Positions 2,494-7,757 of a stretch of 8,142 bases of DNA are shown here, piece after piece. Position 1 is the first letter of the stretch. Each line of letters begins with the position of its first letter. The stretch is from contig JBFLYA010000172.1 in NCBI GenBank assembly GCA_040757115.1, positions 1-8,142 on the forward strand, written 5' to 3'. Source of the stretch: a bacterium. Its GTDB lineage: Bacteria; UBA9089; CG2-30-40-21; SBAY01. The notes below the pieces were generated by a model that was not told the DNA's origin, ran no database searches, and saw nothing but the letters and a program-made list of their open reading frames with translations. The translations under genes were made by a program, and so were the position numbers.

Positions 2494-2564
2494 GTAAGCG
2501 GATTGAACGGATTGAGCGGATTTTTTTTATTTCTTTTTCCGCTAAATCCGTTAAATCCGCTTAC
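2494..2564. repeat. Hairpin with 27-bp arms that ends the helicase fragment
   Basis: Arms at 2494-2520 and 2538-2564 are complementary at 25 of 27 positions around a 17-base T-rich loop. Each arm is itself built from near-repeats of ggatt(t/g)aac / gcgga words. A degenerate further copy (gtaagctgattaaacagatt) lies at 2462-2481. The outer end at 2564 coincides with the last base of the helicase remnant's stop codon, so this element marks the breakpoint of that gene. It could also act as a bidirectional terminator-like structure. Confidence 0.85.
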
Positions 2565-3229
2565 TAATCTTTATGTTCATCGGAAATCAAATCGGAACGG
2601 TAATAAAAAACGGTAATCTCGTTTTTAGCAAACGGCAGGACATTTTCGCGCTTCACGCTCTCGTAATCTCTCAAATTTTTAAGGTTTATCTTTGTGTTAA
2701 AGTTAAAGCTGTTAAATTCCTCAACATGATTTTTGAATTGGTCCAAAAGGTCATCGCGGTGAACCAAAAAGAGAATATCTCCTGTAAGCAATTCTTCTTC
2801 GGCAATAAGCTTGCCCAAAAGCTCAATAAGTTTAACGATAATCAGCGTCTTGCCCGAGCCGGTCGCCATCCAAAAGCTCATTCGGTTTATAAAATGTGCG
2901 AAAGGGATTTTTGAATCTATGGCGGGATAATCCTTATCATATTCTAAAAGATATTTTGCCGTCTTTTTGCCTTCCCTCTTTTTCAGGTCGTAATCAAAGT
3001 TTTCCCTAAAATCGTTGGTTTGATAGTGAACAAATAAACTCTGTTTGTCCGCTTTTTTGTCTTTAAAATAAAGCCATAAACCTTTGAGTGCGTTTTGAAG
3101 CCCTTCTTTTTGAAAATCAAAAAGCGTCTTGTCTTTTGAAAACCGCGCAAAATCAAACCCCTGCCATTTTGCCGGTAAGTTTTCAAAAGAAATATCATCT
3201 ACGATGTTTTGTAAGTATAAGTTACTCAT
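2564..3229 (-). pseudogene. Type III restriction (Res-like) DEAD/DEAH helicase, N-terminal fragment
   Basis: The first 221 residues of a superfamily 2 helicase of the kind found as the Res subunit of type III restriction systems, which uses ATP to translocate and cut DNA. Seen here: FDFQKEGLQ (38-46), a Walker A FWMATGSGKTL (119-129) and motif Ia DILFLVHRDDLLDQF (151-165). Intact relatives run to many hundred residues with a DEAH box, a second RecA domain and a nuclease domain, none of which is present. The last family-like residues are RSDLISDEHK; the next codons are Asp and a TAG whose final base is the first base of the 2494-2564 hairpin. The ATG start overlaps the end of the upstream gene (ATGAGTAA), so it was translationally coupled to it. 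It cannot be active as a nuclease. Family assignment is good; the precise subtype is inferred. Confidence 0.85.
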
Positions 3230-3926: not shown

Positions 3927-4757
3927 TTATCCCTTTAATCTCTTTTGACTTTCTGGTTTCTCTAAATAATTATCTTTAGAGACGATAGATTTCTTTAATC
4001 TTCTTTCCAGCTGTCTGCGAGCATTACCAGCAATATCACCACCTGCTTTAGCATCTGCTTTCAATTTTGGCATGCCCATTGAATCTTCTACCTTATGAAT
4101 TTCAGTAGTAGCACGCTCACCAAGCATAGTAAAAATTAATTCCAGGTCATCCATATGGTCACGCAGATTTTCCCGCTTCAGTCCTTTTAATTCTTTATAT
4201 TGGCTTGGGGTTATATCAAATGTTGCTTTTGAGATTTCCGCAGTTAAGATTTCATAATCCTTCTGTTCCTGTGCCCCTCTTTTTTGCCATTCGTCTGTTA
4301 GTTCCTCACGGATGGCAATGCCCCGCATCCTCTTTTCAATCCAATCGTCAGAATAGCCCTTTAATTTATAAAGCATTCGTGTCCGTTTAGTTGCTAATTC
4401 AGGATTTTCTATCTCCTGCACCCGTTCGTAACCAACATGAGCTAACCATTTCTTAAACGGCTCGGCTTTTGGTGAAGGTATTGACTGGATAATCCGAAAA
4501 ACACCTTCTGTATTAGCGCAATCAGTTTCACGCATTTTTCCATCCGGCGCTTCCAATTTCAACCCGTGACAAAATGTCACGACTTCACTTCCTTCTTCTT
4601 TTAATCGCTGTTTCAATTTTCTCCAATAGGCGCCGGCATCGACACTATCTGTCAATGCTTCGCATACATCAGTAACCGAAAACCACCACTCGTTTTGATA
4701 AATGGTTTTTCTGATTTTTTTGCCCTTGAATAATGCTATTTTTGTTGTTGTTTCCAT
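3927..4757 (-). CDS. Bro-N family protein (phage antirepressor-like DNA-binding protein)
   Basis: A complete 276-residue protein with an N-terminal Bro-N domain, a DNA-binding fold known from baculovirus BRO and phage antirepressor proteins. Recognisable stretches are KGKKIRKTIYQNEWWFSV (11-28), LKLEAPDGK (66-74), TDCANTEGVFRIIQSIPSPK (78-97) and FKKWLAHVGYERVQEIENPE (101-120). The rest is helical and basic, including SDDWIEKRMRGIAIREELT (136-154) and GLKRENLRDHMDDLELIFTML (192-212). The start is fixed by GGAGG seven bases upstream of the ATG. It lies between the methyltransferase fragment (16 bp upstream) and the AlbA_2 remnant (2 bp downstream), so it was part of the restriction operon; relatives are often found inside restriction or mobile loci. 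It is the only intact gene of this unit. The likely role is DNA binding or regulation of the locus; the target is unknown. Confidence 0.88.
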   Translation of the reverse strand: METTTKIALFKGKKIRKTIYQNEWWFSVTDVCEALTDSVDAGAYWRKLKQRLKEEGSEVVTFCHGLKLEAPDGKMRETDCANTEGVFRIIQSIPSPKAEPFKKWLAHVGYERVQEIENPELATKRTRMLYKLKGYSDDWIEKRMRGIAIREELTDEWQKRGAQEQKDYEILTAEISKATFDITPSQYKELKGLKRENLRDHMDDLELIFTMLGERATTEIHKVEDSMGMPKLKADAKAGGDIAGNARRQLERRLKKSIVSKDNYLEKPESQKRLKG

Positions 4758-5183: not shown

Positions 5184-5345
5184 CACGAATTCCACAAATT
5201 AACGAATATTACTAATGAAGAAAAAATATAGGAATTCCCTTTAGTTTTTATTATCCTGATAATCTGCAGAAACCAGCGTCCTATTAACTTGAAAGGCTGT
5301 ATATCCTCCACTATGAGTAGGGGAGAAGTCCGCTGGATTGTTTTG

Positions 5346-5669
5346 TTAAGGGTTTTCCAGTTCTTCTCGATCTTGCAGTTTTCTTTTAATAGTCCGGGGA
5401 GCACGTGCACAATGGAAAAGTCCATACACAATAATCTGGCCATCTTTTATCATGTAATAAATACTATACGGAAATCTTCTGAGCAGACAGCGACGGAATT
5501 CTTTATAAACTTTCGGATAAAGCAATGGATTCCATCGAATTCCTCCAACACATGCATAAAATATCCGAAGAAATTCCTCCCCAAGTCCCGGTGATTTTGT
5601 TTCATACCATACATAAGCACCGATAATATCTTCCTCGATTTCAGGAAGAAAACGCAGTGGGTATATCAT
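5346..5669 (-). CDS. RelE/ParE-family toxin of a type II toxin-antitoxin pair
   Basis: A 107-residue protein with the RelE/ParE fold layout: a helical hairpin (EIEEDIIGAYVWYETKSPGLG, about 10-30), an Arg-rich strand (RRCLLRRFPYSIYYMI, 59-74) and the C-terminal HCARAPRTIKRKL (86-98), which matches the H.AR.PR.. ending common in this family. Members either cut mRNA on the ribosome (RelE-like) or poison gyrase (ParE-like); the sequence does not decide which. The ATG overlaps the antitoxin stop by four bases (ATGA), with AGGT in the antitoxin's last codons as ribosome site, so the two are translationally coupled. It appears complete. Cys87 stands where glycine is more usual. Confidence 0.87.
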   Translation of the reverse strand: MIYPLRFLPEIEEDIIGAYVWYETKSPGLGEEFLRIFYACVGGIRWNPLLYPKVYKEFRRCLLRRFPYSIYYMIKDGQIIVYGLFHCARAPRTIKRKLQDREELENP

Positions 5670-5887
5670 TTTCTACCTTGTATTTTTGCCTGAAGTTCAT
5701 CGAGAGATAAAAGAGTCCCCCGCCCAGATTCATATCTTTTGAACCTTTTGTCCAACTCCTCTATGTGGCTTTGAGGAATAGGAACAACAGATTCATCCGA
5801 AGCAATACTATCCCACAGATTCTCAACAAACAAAATCTTTTCCGGCGTACTTAATTTAGTGATTTCGGGAATATCATTCACGCGCAC
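5666..5887 (-). CDS. Antitoxin of the addiction-module (Unstab_antitox) family
   Basis: A 73-residue acidic-to-mixed protein matching the small addiction-module antitoxins that pair with RelE/ParE toxins. The landmarks are ITKLSTPEKILFVENLWDSIA (9-29), where the ls..E...l.e.LwdSi pattern is diagnostic, and a C-terminal helix with SLDELQAKIQ (61-70) that would wrap the toxin. It is read first in the pair and would neutralise the toxin and probably repress the operon. The start is GTG at 5887, chosen because AAGGAG lies seven bases upstream; a second in-frame GTG two codons later is a weaker alternative. The promoter at 6023-6051 is about 130 bases upstream, and the right copy of the 64-bp repeat sits in the leader between them. 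Confidence 0.85.
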   Translation of the reverse strand: MRVNDIPEITKLSTPEKILFVENLWDSIASDESVVPIPQSHIEELDKRFKRYESGRGTLLSLDELQAKIQGRK

Positions 5888-6113: not shown

Positions 6114-7613
6114 TTACGCCAGTATCACTGGTAGGCGAAAGGTTTCACGGATTATGGTTGCTTCTTGAAGAGTAAAAACAACTATAACCATATCTTCTGG
6201 TGAAATCTGATTTAAGAGAACATCACCTGGTATCCGCCATTCTTTTTCCGATGTCCAATCACTCTTTGATAAGTGATGTAATTGGAATCTAAACCGTTCA
6301 GTCGCTGGTAGTTTCTTGAATTTAGATTCAGGGGCATAGATTACTGGTTTAATCGCCATCTTTTTCAGGATATTTCTCCGAATGCCGATTCCATAAGGTT
6401 CAAAAGTCCAGCGAATCAAAGCAGGGTTCCATTTACGGATTTTAATCAATTCATTTGGTAGGCAAGCAGTAAATGAAGTTACCGGCGTTTTTCCCCGAAT
6501 AAGCCGATTACTGGCACGAATAAGTTTTTCTTTGAGAATTCGGCATAAGGTATCAAAAGCCGTATGCCCGGCATCAGATTCACCAGCAATAAGTGATTGG
6601 ATATATGCAGATAAAGATTGTCCTGGCCATGGTCCAGGGCAGGCACGAGTATAATGAAAGAGATACTCATCTAATTTAACCATATCGAGTTCAATTGTAT
6701 GGAGTGGAGTATCCGTGACACTGCCTACCTCAACTGTCTGAAGTGGCGTGTCTATGACACTGCCTACCTCCAAAGACTCTGCACCAGATAATAATAAATT
6801 CTGATTGCCTTTTGTGTTCTGGTCAAATCTTGTTGGTCGAAATACGGTAACCTTCTTTTTTTCTGAAAATGATTTAGCCACTAATCTCTGGATATTCCCT
6901 TGTGCACAAGCCTCAGCTACAAAGAGATACTCGGCTAAAGCCACTACCCAGTAATCGCGAGTAACCAATCGTTCCTTACGAGATGGTAAGGTAATTTCAG
7001 GTAAGAATGGGGAGATAAACAGTGTCTTTTCTAATCCAAACATATTGCTGAATTTATCGTAAAAAGCCTTTTGAAGGTCAGGGGTTAATACCCCTGGTAA
7101 ATATTCATCCAGAACAATAATCACTGGTGAATGAAATTGTTTGGCAATAAAGGTAACTATTTCGTAAGTAAGTATGCCAAGGCTGGAAACAATCGTCAGT
7201 TTTTTTGCGATTACCTGTTGAGTTAATTTTATTGTTACTTTTAGCCAGCGAGTAGTAGGTGTTACGGCACGAAGTTTATGTGAATTTAATACCGCGGCCT
7301 TAGAGGAATTTAGTATCTCTGGATTCCCCTGAGCAAAAAGGATTTGCTCACCAATAAATAACACAAAAACACCATTTTCTAACCATTGCTTTGCTTTTTC
7401 TTTTGCCTGATGAATATTTAACCGATGAGCAGATAAACCATATCTTTTACTTACCTCCGTAATCCAGGTATATGGGTCATCAAAAATATTATTACTTTTA
7501 TTGATTTTTATCAGAAAGGAAGAAACTTGAGTGGCAGTTAAATGTTTAAATTGAGAAAATAAGGCAAGAGTAAAAAGTATGGGAAAAGAAGAGTTATCTT
7601 TCAATTTTTGCAT
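6114..7613 (-). CDS. DprA-like (SLOG/Rossmann) protein fused to a C-terminal DUF2971-like domain
   Basis: A 499-residue protein. Residues 1-85 are mostly helical, like the front domain of DprA. Residues 89-260 follow the DprA Rossmann plan: EQILFAQGNPEIL (the DprA lf.GN..lL motif), AAVLNSHKL, IAKKLTIVSSLG, SPVIIVLDEYLPG, VTRDYWVVALAEYLFVAEAC and KKKVTVFRP. Yet DprA's GSR, SG.A.GID and RNRIIA motifs are replaced, so a role in loading RecA onto DNA is unlikely and a nucleotide-sensing SLOG-type role is more plausible. A linker carries two 13-residue repeats (283-308). The C-terminal part has FHYTRACPGPWPGQS (319-333), VTSFTACLP (378-386), RWTFEPYGIGI (401-411), KPVIYAP and DWTSEKEWRIPGD (452-464). 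This order (HYT, SFT, G-I, P-V-Y, E-E-R) recalls DUF2971/ADP-ribosyltransferase-like proteins; that is a guess. The ATG has AGGGAG only one base upstream, so the TTG at codon 4 is an alternative start. Monocistronic; promoter candidate at 7758-7786. Confidence 0.7.
   Translation of the reverse strand: MQKLKDNSSFPILFTLALFSQFKHLTATQVSSFLIKINKSNNIFDDPYTWITEVSKRYGLSAHRLNIHQAKEKAKQWLENGVFVLFIGEQILFAQGNPEILNSSKAAVLNSHKLRAVTPTTRWLKVTIKLTQQVIAKKLTIVSSLGILTYEIVTFIAKQFHSPVIIVLDEYLPGVLTPDLQKAFYDKFSNMFGLEKTLFISPFLPEITLPSRKERLVTRDYWVVALAEYLFVAEACAQGNIQRLVAKSFSEKKKVTVFRPTRFDQNTKGNQNLLLSGAESLEVGSVIDTPLQTVEVGSVTDTPLHTIELDMVKLDEYLFHYTRACPGPWPGQSLSAYIQSLIAGESDAGHTAFDTLCRILKEKLIRASNRLIRGKTPVTSFTACLPNELIKIRKWNPALIRWTFEPYGIGIRRNILKKMAIKPVIYAPESKFKKLPATERFRFQLHHLSKSDWTSEKEWRIPGDVLLNQISPEDMVIVVFTLQEATIIRETFRLPVILA
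6690..6767 (-). repeat. 39-bp tandem duplication in the linker of the DprA-like fusion gene
   Basis: Two adjacent 39-bp units encode VGSVIDTPLQTVE and VGSVTDTPLHTIE (residues 283-308). It lies exactly between the Rossmann part and the C-terminal domain, so it works as a variable-length linker and keeps the frame. Confidence 0.85.
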
Positions 7614-7626
7614 ACTCCCTGTAATT

Positions 7627-7675
7627 GGTAACTGGTGATTGGTAACTGGTAATTAGTTACCAATCACCAGTTACC
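7627..7675. repeat. Perfect 21-bp inverted repeat in the leader of the DprA-like gene
   Basis: Arms 7627-7647 and 7655-7675 are perfectly complementary around a 7-base loop (ggtaatt). Each arm contains ggtaact twice, so smaller folds are also possible. It lies 13 bases before the gene's start, between the start and its promoter candidate, so the mRNA leader would carry a strong hairpin close to the ribosome site. Confidence 0.92.
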
Positions 7676-7757
7676 AGTACCTTATTCGAGCCAAATGCCT
7701 TATCACAATTTCGTGCGTTATTTGTTCTACACGACACTATCAACTCCGTCATTTCCA

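Follow-up and report, generated by a model that had tools for sequence, protein, structure and literature searches.

A DprA-like protein fused to an AbiGi-related domain of predicted ADP-ribosyltransferase fold in several bacterial phyla

The window analyzed in this study, positions 1-8,142 of contig JBFLYA010000172.1 (assembly GCA_040757115.1), encodes at 6114-7613 on its minus strand an intact open reading frame of 499 codons plus a stop, which begins with ATG and is preceded by an AGGGAG sequence (Table 1). A plus-strand reading of the same interval contained many stops and was rejected. Homologues that share its two-domain layout over all or nearly all of their length, approximately 39 in number and up to 52% identical, occur in Desulfobacterota, LCP-89, Electryoneota, Calditrichota, and Planctomycetota, and because of these homologues the frame was not regarded as a chance occurrence. 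A sequence-only reading had previously described the product as a DprA-like sensor joined to a compact enzyme-like domain, and had proposed it as a one-gene defence protein. The peptides quoted in that reading were all present in the intact frame, where H320, S380-F381-T382, E456, and E458 occupied the positions assigned to them.

Table 1. Coordinates of the fusion gene, its domains and candidate residues, and neighboring genes in the window.
Feature	Coordinates	Strand	Basis
Whole gene, DprA-like and AbiGi/ART-fold fusion	6114..7613	-	Open reading frame and homologues
Residues 1-80, N-terminal helical domain, like the N-terminal part of ShosA	7374..7613	-	AF2 model helices 9-79; VIA-align to 8zva over 5-289
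Residues 81-289, DprA/SLOG Rossmann-like domain	6747..7373	-	PF02481 at 91-281; VIA-align
Residues 290-311, low-confidence linker	6681..6746	-	pLDDT below 50 at 288-308
Residues 312-499, AbiGi-related domain, predicted ADP-ribosyltransferase (DarT-like) fold	6117..6680	-	AF2, VIA-align, hhalign
H320, in H-x-T-R, first strand of the C-terminal domain (strand 317-321)	6654..6656	-	Kept in 58/59 fused, standalone, and AbiGi proteins
Y426, PVxY strand	6336..6338	-	Kept in 59/59
E456-K-E458-W-R460 motif, candidate ART glutamate(s)	6234..6248	-	E456, E458, and R460 kept in 59/59
ParE-type toxin and antitoxin	5346..5887	-
BRO-N protein	3927..4757	-	PADLOC phage-defence candidate PDC-S13, E 1e-118, nearly full length
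ResIII helicase fragment	2564..3229	-

Downstream of the fusion gene lie the ParE-type toxin and antitoxin, the BRO-N protein, a RecG-like C-terminal piece, and the ResIII fragment. The toxin-antitoxin pair and restriction debris reported in the sequence-only reading are real. They are local to the window contig and absent from the surroundings of the homologues.

Several non-coding elements were also observed. An inverted repeat of 22 bp without mismatches, folding around a 7-nt loop (7626-7676; -38.4 kcal/mol, z -7.35), ends some 10 nt ahead of the start codon. It was considered as a gene-specific regulator and rejected, as copies of its core motif are scattered over other parts of the genome: 12 related GGTnATTGGTnA motifs were counted in 400 kb sampled, and three lie near the comEC gene of this genome (L133). 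An intergenic element of about 50 bp (approximately 5240-5294) is a dispersed repeat, with copies at 81-92% identity on at least 12 further contigs of this genome. An Rfam scan of the window returned no match.

A full-length AF2 model, built from an alignment of 22 sequences (A1), had a pLDDT of 85 and a pTM of 0.83. The alignment indicated that the LCP-89 group, like the same-phylum homologues that are about 416-420 amino acids long, has a shorter N-terminal helical domain or none. The linker region (6681-6770, minus strand) encodes a 13-residue tandem repeat, LEVGSVIDTPLQT / VEVGSVTDTPLHT, most of which falls within residues 290-311. A sequence search of the PDB with the single window protein returned no match.

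The description of the first half as DprA-like or SLOG-like was borne out by both sequence and predicted structure. Residues 91-281 matched PF02481 with an E-value of 3.8e-6, at 26.7 bits against a curated cut-off of 29.6, and TIGR00732 with an E-value of 6e-4, at 19.1 bits and far below its cut-off of 191. The top fold match was the DprA-like antitoxin ShosA (PDB 8zva), with a VIA-align Z of 20.0 at 3.6 A over 256 residues (residues 5-289) and 16% identity, followed by pneumococcal DprA (3uqz) with a Z of 19.4 and Helicobacter pylori DprA with a Z of about 19. The remaining SLOG proteins (LOG, ThsA, and TRPM) had Z values of 12 or less. Among these, the SLOG domain of Thoeris ThsA, whose effector is a SIR2 domain, shares the SLOG fold but is far less alike than DprA, with a Z of 7.6-8.0 to residues 102-288. 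With Z values of 19-20 over about 250 residues, the protein has the DprA-type Rossmann core of the DprA/SLOG superfamily, and the model of its first half, N-terminal helical domain included, has the fold of DprA itself, with ShosA as the nearest solved relative.

The fusion protein is nevertheless not a canonical DprA, as it lies below the curated cut-off and its signature motifs have drifted. The position of VGSR is occupied by VLNSR in most homologues and by VLNSH in the window protein, SGxARGID is replaced by SSxGxxxxD, and the RNR region reads RD. The winged helix at the C-terminus of canonical DprA/Smf is also missing. The suggestion that the residues expected for DNA handling had been lost was thus partly correct: the motifs have changed, and the predicted fold is that of DprA. 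At position 112, the window protein has a histidine where 36 of 38 sequences have an arginine, and the altered glycine motifs together with H112 therefore make DNA or nucleotide binding by this half uncertain. A separate canonical dprA was found in all 32 genomes checked.

The comparison with ShosA and PsyrA (PDB 8zva and 9vzo) extended across the N-terminal helical domain and the DprA/SLOG core over residues 5-289. PADLOC models for PsyrA and ShosA matched the window protein weakly, with E-values of 3.7e-5 and 1.9e-3, respectively. In contrast to these antitoxins, the window protein is fused to an AbiGi/ART-fold domain and its homologues occupy a chromosomal housekeeping setting. The phosphoribosyltransferase toxin that adjoins the antitoxin in ShosTA and PsyrTA was not seen: neither PsyrT nor ShosT was identified among 120 neighbors of the homologues (E 1e-10) or among the scanned window proteins.

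The C-terminal domain is the better conserved part of the protein. Over the 39 homologues, mean identity was 41% in this domain and 23% in the DprA half, and the C-terminal value was the higher in 730 of 732 pairs, which is consistent with the expectation for a domain that carries an active site. No Pfam family matched residues 312-499 of the window protein when scanned alone. The domain occurred in 30 of 395 genomes of the Desulfacinum phylum, as 18 fusions, of which a contig end truncates one, as 11 standalone proteins with open frames of roughly 180-310 amino acids, and in one DUF4427-type protein. The standalone form is a protein of about 180-230 amino acids.

Profile comparisons connected these forms to AbiGi (PF10899), labelled by Pfam as a putative antitoxin. 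Using hhalign, the fusion matched the standalone proteins at 99.9%, the standalone proteins matched AbiGi at 98.8%, and the fusion matched AbiGi at 97.3%; the DprA domain, used as a negative control, reached 0.3%, and DUF2971 was a weak match at 52%. Against PF10899, the window domain had no match, one member of its alignment had an E-value of 0.04, and one standalone relative (L058) lay exactly at the curated cut-off of 22.4 bits. H320, Y426, E456, E458, and R460 were common to the fused, standalone, and AbiGi proteins, the last sharing with the window domain both the residues and the order H...PVxY...ExEWR. The profile homology and common residues indicate that the domain belongs to a superfamily containing AbiGi. 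The AbiGi members that were retrieved differ in being standalone proteins of about 240-300 amino acids, while the window domain is below Pfam detection and no AbiGii partner was seen. AbiGi is known only as part of the AbiG phage-resistance system, which was reportedly described in 1996.

The standalone relatives in Desulfacinum-phylum genomes (L057-L067) are a candidate new Pfam family; of the five that were scanned, none clearly passed a Pfam cut-off and one was exactly at that of AbiGi. Viral contigs yielded only a distant standalone relative of 232 amino acids, on a contig from a viral collection (L030, 7845-8543, plus strand). It retains H-x-T-R, PVIY, and EREWR, and matched DUF2971 weakly with an E-value of 0.011.

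When modelled alone by AF2, the C-terminal domain had a pLDDT of 88 and a pTM of 0.85. All 41 PDB entries listed by VIA-align for this model were structures of the ADP-ribosyltransferase (ART) superfamily, led by DarT (Z 7.6-6.7) and followed by tRNA 2'-phosphotransferase (Z of at most 6.5) and then by toxins, Arr, and PARP; the best Z of 7.6 is below 8, the level of a clear match in VIA-align. Foldseek against the PDB, a check proposed in the sequence-only reading, identified no ART at a significant E-value, and the ART claim therefore rests on VIA-align. Against viral structures, the best Foldseek E-value was 1.2e-3, for a Bacillus phage SP-15 protein with a low TM. A PDB sequence search with the C-terminal profile returned only chance-level matches. 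Since the VIA-align list was consistent and the coverage full-length, an ART fold is the best assignment for the modelled domain. Together with the AbiGi profile link, this assignment supports at the level of predicted fold the earlier suggestion of a compact, ADP-ribosyltransferase-like second half.

The near-invariant residues H320 in the first strand, Y426 in the PVxY strand, and E456/E458 follow the sequence order of an H-Y-E triad. An H-Y-[EDQ] triad defines the ARTs of the diphtheria-toxin/PARP type, and DarT, which is without it, relies on R51 and E160 (PMC9967889). The predicted fold resembles DarT (PF14487; 7yk3, 7omw, and 8baq) over 128-140 of 188 residues with 10-16% identity, and an H-x-T sequence in the first strand is common to both. 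In contrast, the DarT motifs IKxRR, VPFYF, and QAEFL are missing, and hhalign against DarT was not significant, with a best value of 6.7%. No macrodomain (DarG) was present among the 25 commonest neighbor families listed, and no DarTG model was among the PADLOC matches. Hence, neither a sequence profile nor a DarG partner places the domain in the DarT family. From the model and the conserved residues, we infer that the domain may be catalytic.

The homologues are single-copy in each genome and their tree tracks lineage, with the window protein grouping with two genomes of the same phylum at 100/99. In a genome of the same family (G002), only a remnant was found (L026, 1411-1758, minus strand). 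It has lost the DprA core, so that residues 35-120 run almost straight into the HYT motif, and its frame stops soon after that motif. The gene can therefore be lost.

The neighborhoods of the homologues varied among lineages. In the Desulfomonilaceae-type loci (L006, L119, L121, L124, and L131, the last of which is cut), comEC on the opposite strand is followed by an HTH_25/RodZ-like gene, a small gene, and the fusion. A prepilin peptidase gene is next downstream in four of these five loci (L006, L119, L124, and L131), and in L124 it overlaps the fusion by 4 nt. The distance from comEC to the fusion was 3-5 kb in the genomes G021, G133, G343, and G416, and comEC was located elsewhere in other genomes. 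This proximity is limited to these four genomes in two clades, and a fifth (G361) ends at a contig end. In Desulfobacterales, a GspA-like AAA gene and a TPR gene follow the fusion (L004, L005, and L008, the last to its contig limit), and in L004 and L005 these are succeeded by MshE-type ATPase and T2SSF genes in an MSHA-type pilus order, with a BPL_N-type gene preceding the fusion. In other lineages, the fusion is often beside ychF or obg (Syntrophobacteraceae) or is beside rlmN, a MoxR ATPase gene, and sppA (LCP-89).

The uncharacterised BPL_N-like protein, of about 430-560 amino acids, recurs upstream in L004 (1568-2857), L005 (8380-9720), L009 (303-2000), and L010 (6693-8024), and its gene in L004 overlaps the fusion by a few bases. 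An apparent second DprA gene upstream in L009 and L010 was shown by alignment to be an antisense reading-frame artefact.

The earlier defence proposal arose from the toxin-antitoxin and restriction surroundings of the window copy itself, and the homologues did not support it. These were beside housekeeping and DNA-uptake genes, and they were not concentrated in defence islands or on mobile elements: among 120 flanking proteins, PADLOC (E 1e-10) identified a single generic protease-type family, RT-Protease_XI, through two models with one member each, and nothing else. Searches of 50,697 phage and 72,556 plasmid records returned no match to the full protein. The recurrence of comEC, prepilin peptidase, MSHA-type pilus genes, ychF, obg, and rlmN is largely the competence or housekeeping setting that the sequence-only reading had itself named as evidence against its proposal.

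We tentatively favor, as possible rather than probable, a chromosomal DprA paralogue that is present in one copy, is inherited vertically, is fused to an AbiGi/DarT-like ART-fold domain, and probably acts on DNA or DNA-handling proteins. The DprA/SLOG half and the ShosA-like helical domain would most likely bind single-stranded DNA or a nucleotide ligand. The DprA half may recruit or gate the AbiGi-family domain, which would most likely use NAD+ to modify DNA or a DNA-handling protein. Because comEC, prepilin peptidase, and pilus genes adjoin the gene in some lineages, its context suggests that the protein serves the uptake or processing of DNA and is not part of a mobile defence island. Against such a role, most lineages show other housekeeping neighbors, and the window copy lies amid toxin-antitoxin and restriction debris. 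The adjoining comEC and prepilin peptidase genes of two clades would also fit a dedicated competence factor, in which a second DprA would act on single-stranded DNA as it enters the cell and the tail would modify or protect that DNA. This is very unlikely, as comEC is distant in most genomes and the canonical dprA and comEC are present regardless.

The C-terminal domain may instead have an ART fold without being an enzyme, serving as a nucleotide- or partner-binding regulator to which the DprA half would be a structural partner. The antitoxin label of AbiGi, the missing DarT-type motifs, and the lack of toxicity in Escherichia coli of lactococcal abiGi and abiGii genes cloned singly (PMC3985639) are in line with such a regulator. 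Polar residues (H, Y, E, E, and R) that stay invariant in three groups and over several phyla would be unusual for a purely structural domain, and we regard the regulator as a serious but unlikely alternative. One-gene abortive infection, in which the DprA-like half would sense phage DNA or recombination intermediates and release a toxic AbiGi/DarT-like domain, draws on the sensing proposed for ShosTA-like systems, on the place of AbiGi in the AbiG phage-resistance system, on the PsyrA and ShosA matches with ShosA as the top fold match, and on the toxin-antitoxin pair and PDC-S13 protein near the window copy. Because DprA-like antitoxins are known in ShosTA, syrTA, and rqlHI, and a DprA and PRTase pair gives protection from T7 and lambda (PMC9122126), a gated effector is conceivable. 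The conserved housekeeping synteny, the lineage-tracking tree, the single copy per genome, the absence of the full protein from the phage and plasmid records searched, and the near-empty PADLOC result for the flanking proteins make abortive infection rather unlikely.

The component parts are of known kinds, and their combination, its context, and the link between AbiGi and ARTs appear to be new; a search covering part of the literature identified no description of a DprA-AbiGi/ART fusion or of an ART fold in AbiGi. In a broader extension of the favored reading, which we consider doubtful, AbiGi, its standalone relatives, and the DprA fusion would form an unrecognised superfamily of NAD-using ADP-ribosyltransferases, and the fusion would be a chromosomal factor that ADP-ribosylates DNA (or carries out DNA-protein modification) and is linked to single-strand binding of the DprA type and, in some lineages, to the uptake of DNA. 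If correct, the ART fold would give testable chemistry to the superfamily of AbiGi, which is so far annotated only as a putative antitoxin. The fusion to a DprA paralogue, conserved across phyla and located away from defence islands, would connect NAD-dependent modification with the routine processing or uptake of DNA, and it would suggest an origin for the DprA-based toxin-antitoxin and defence systems.
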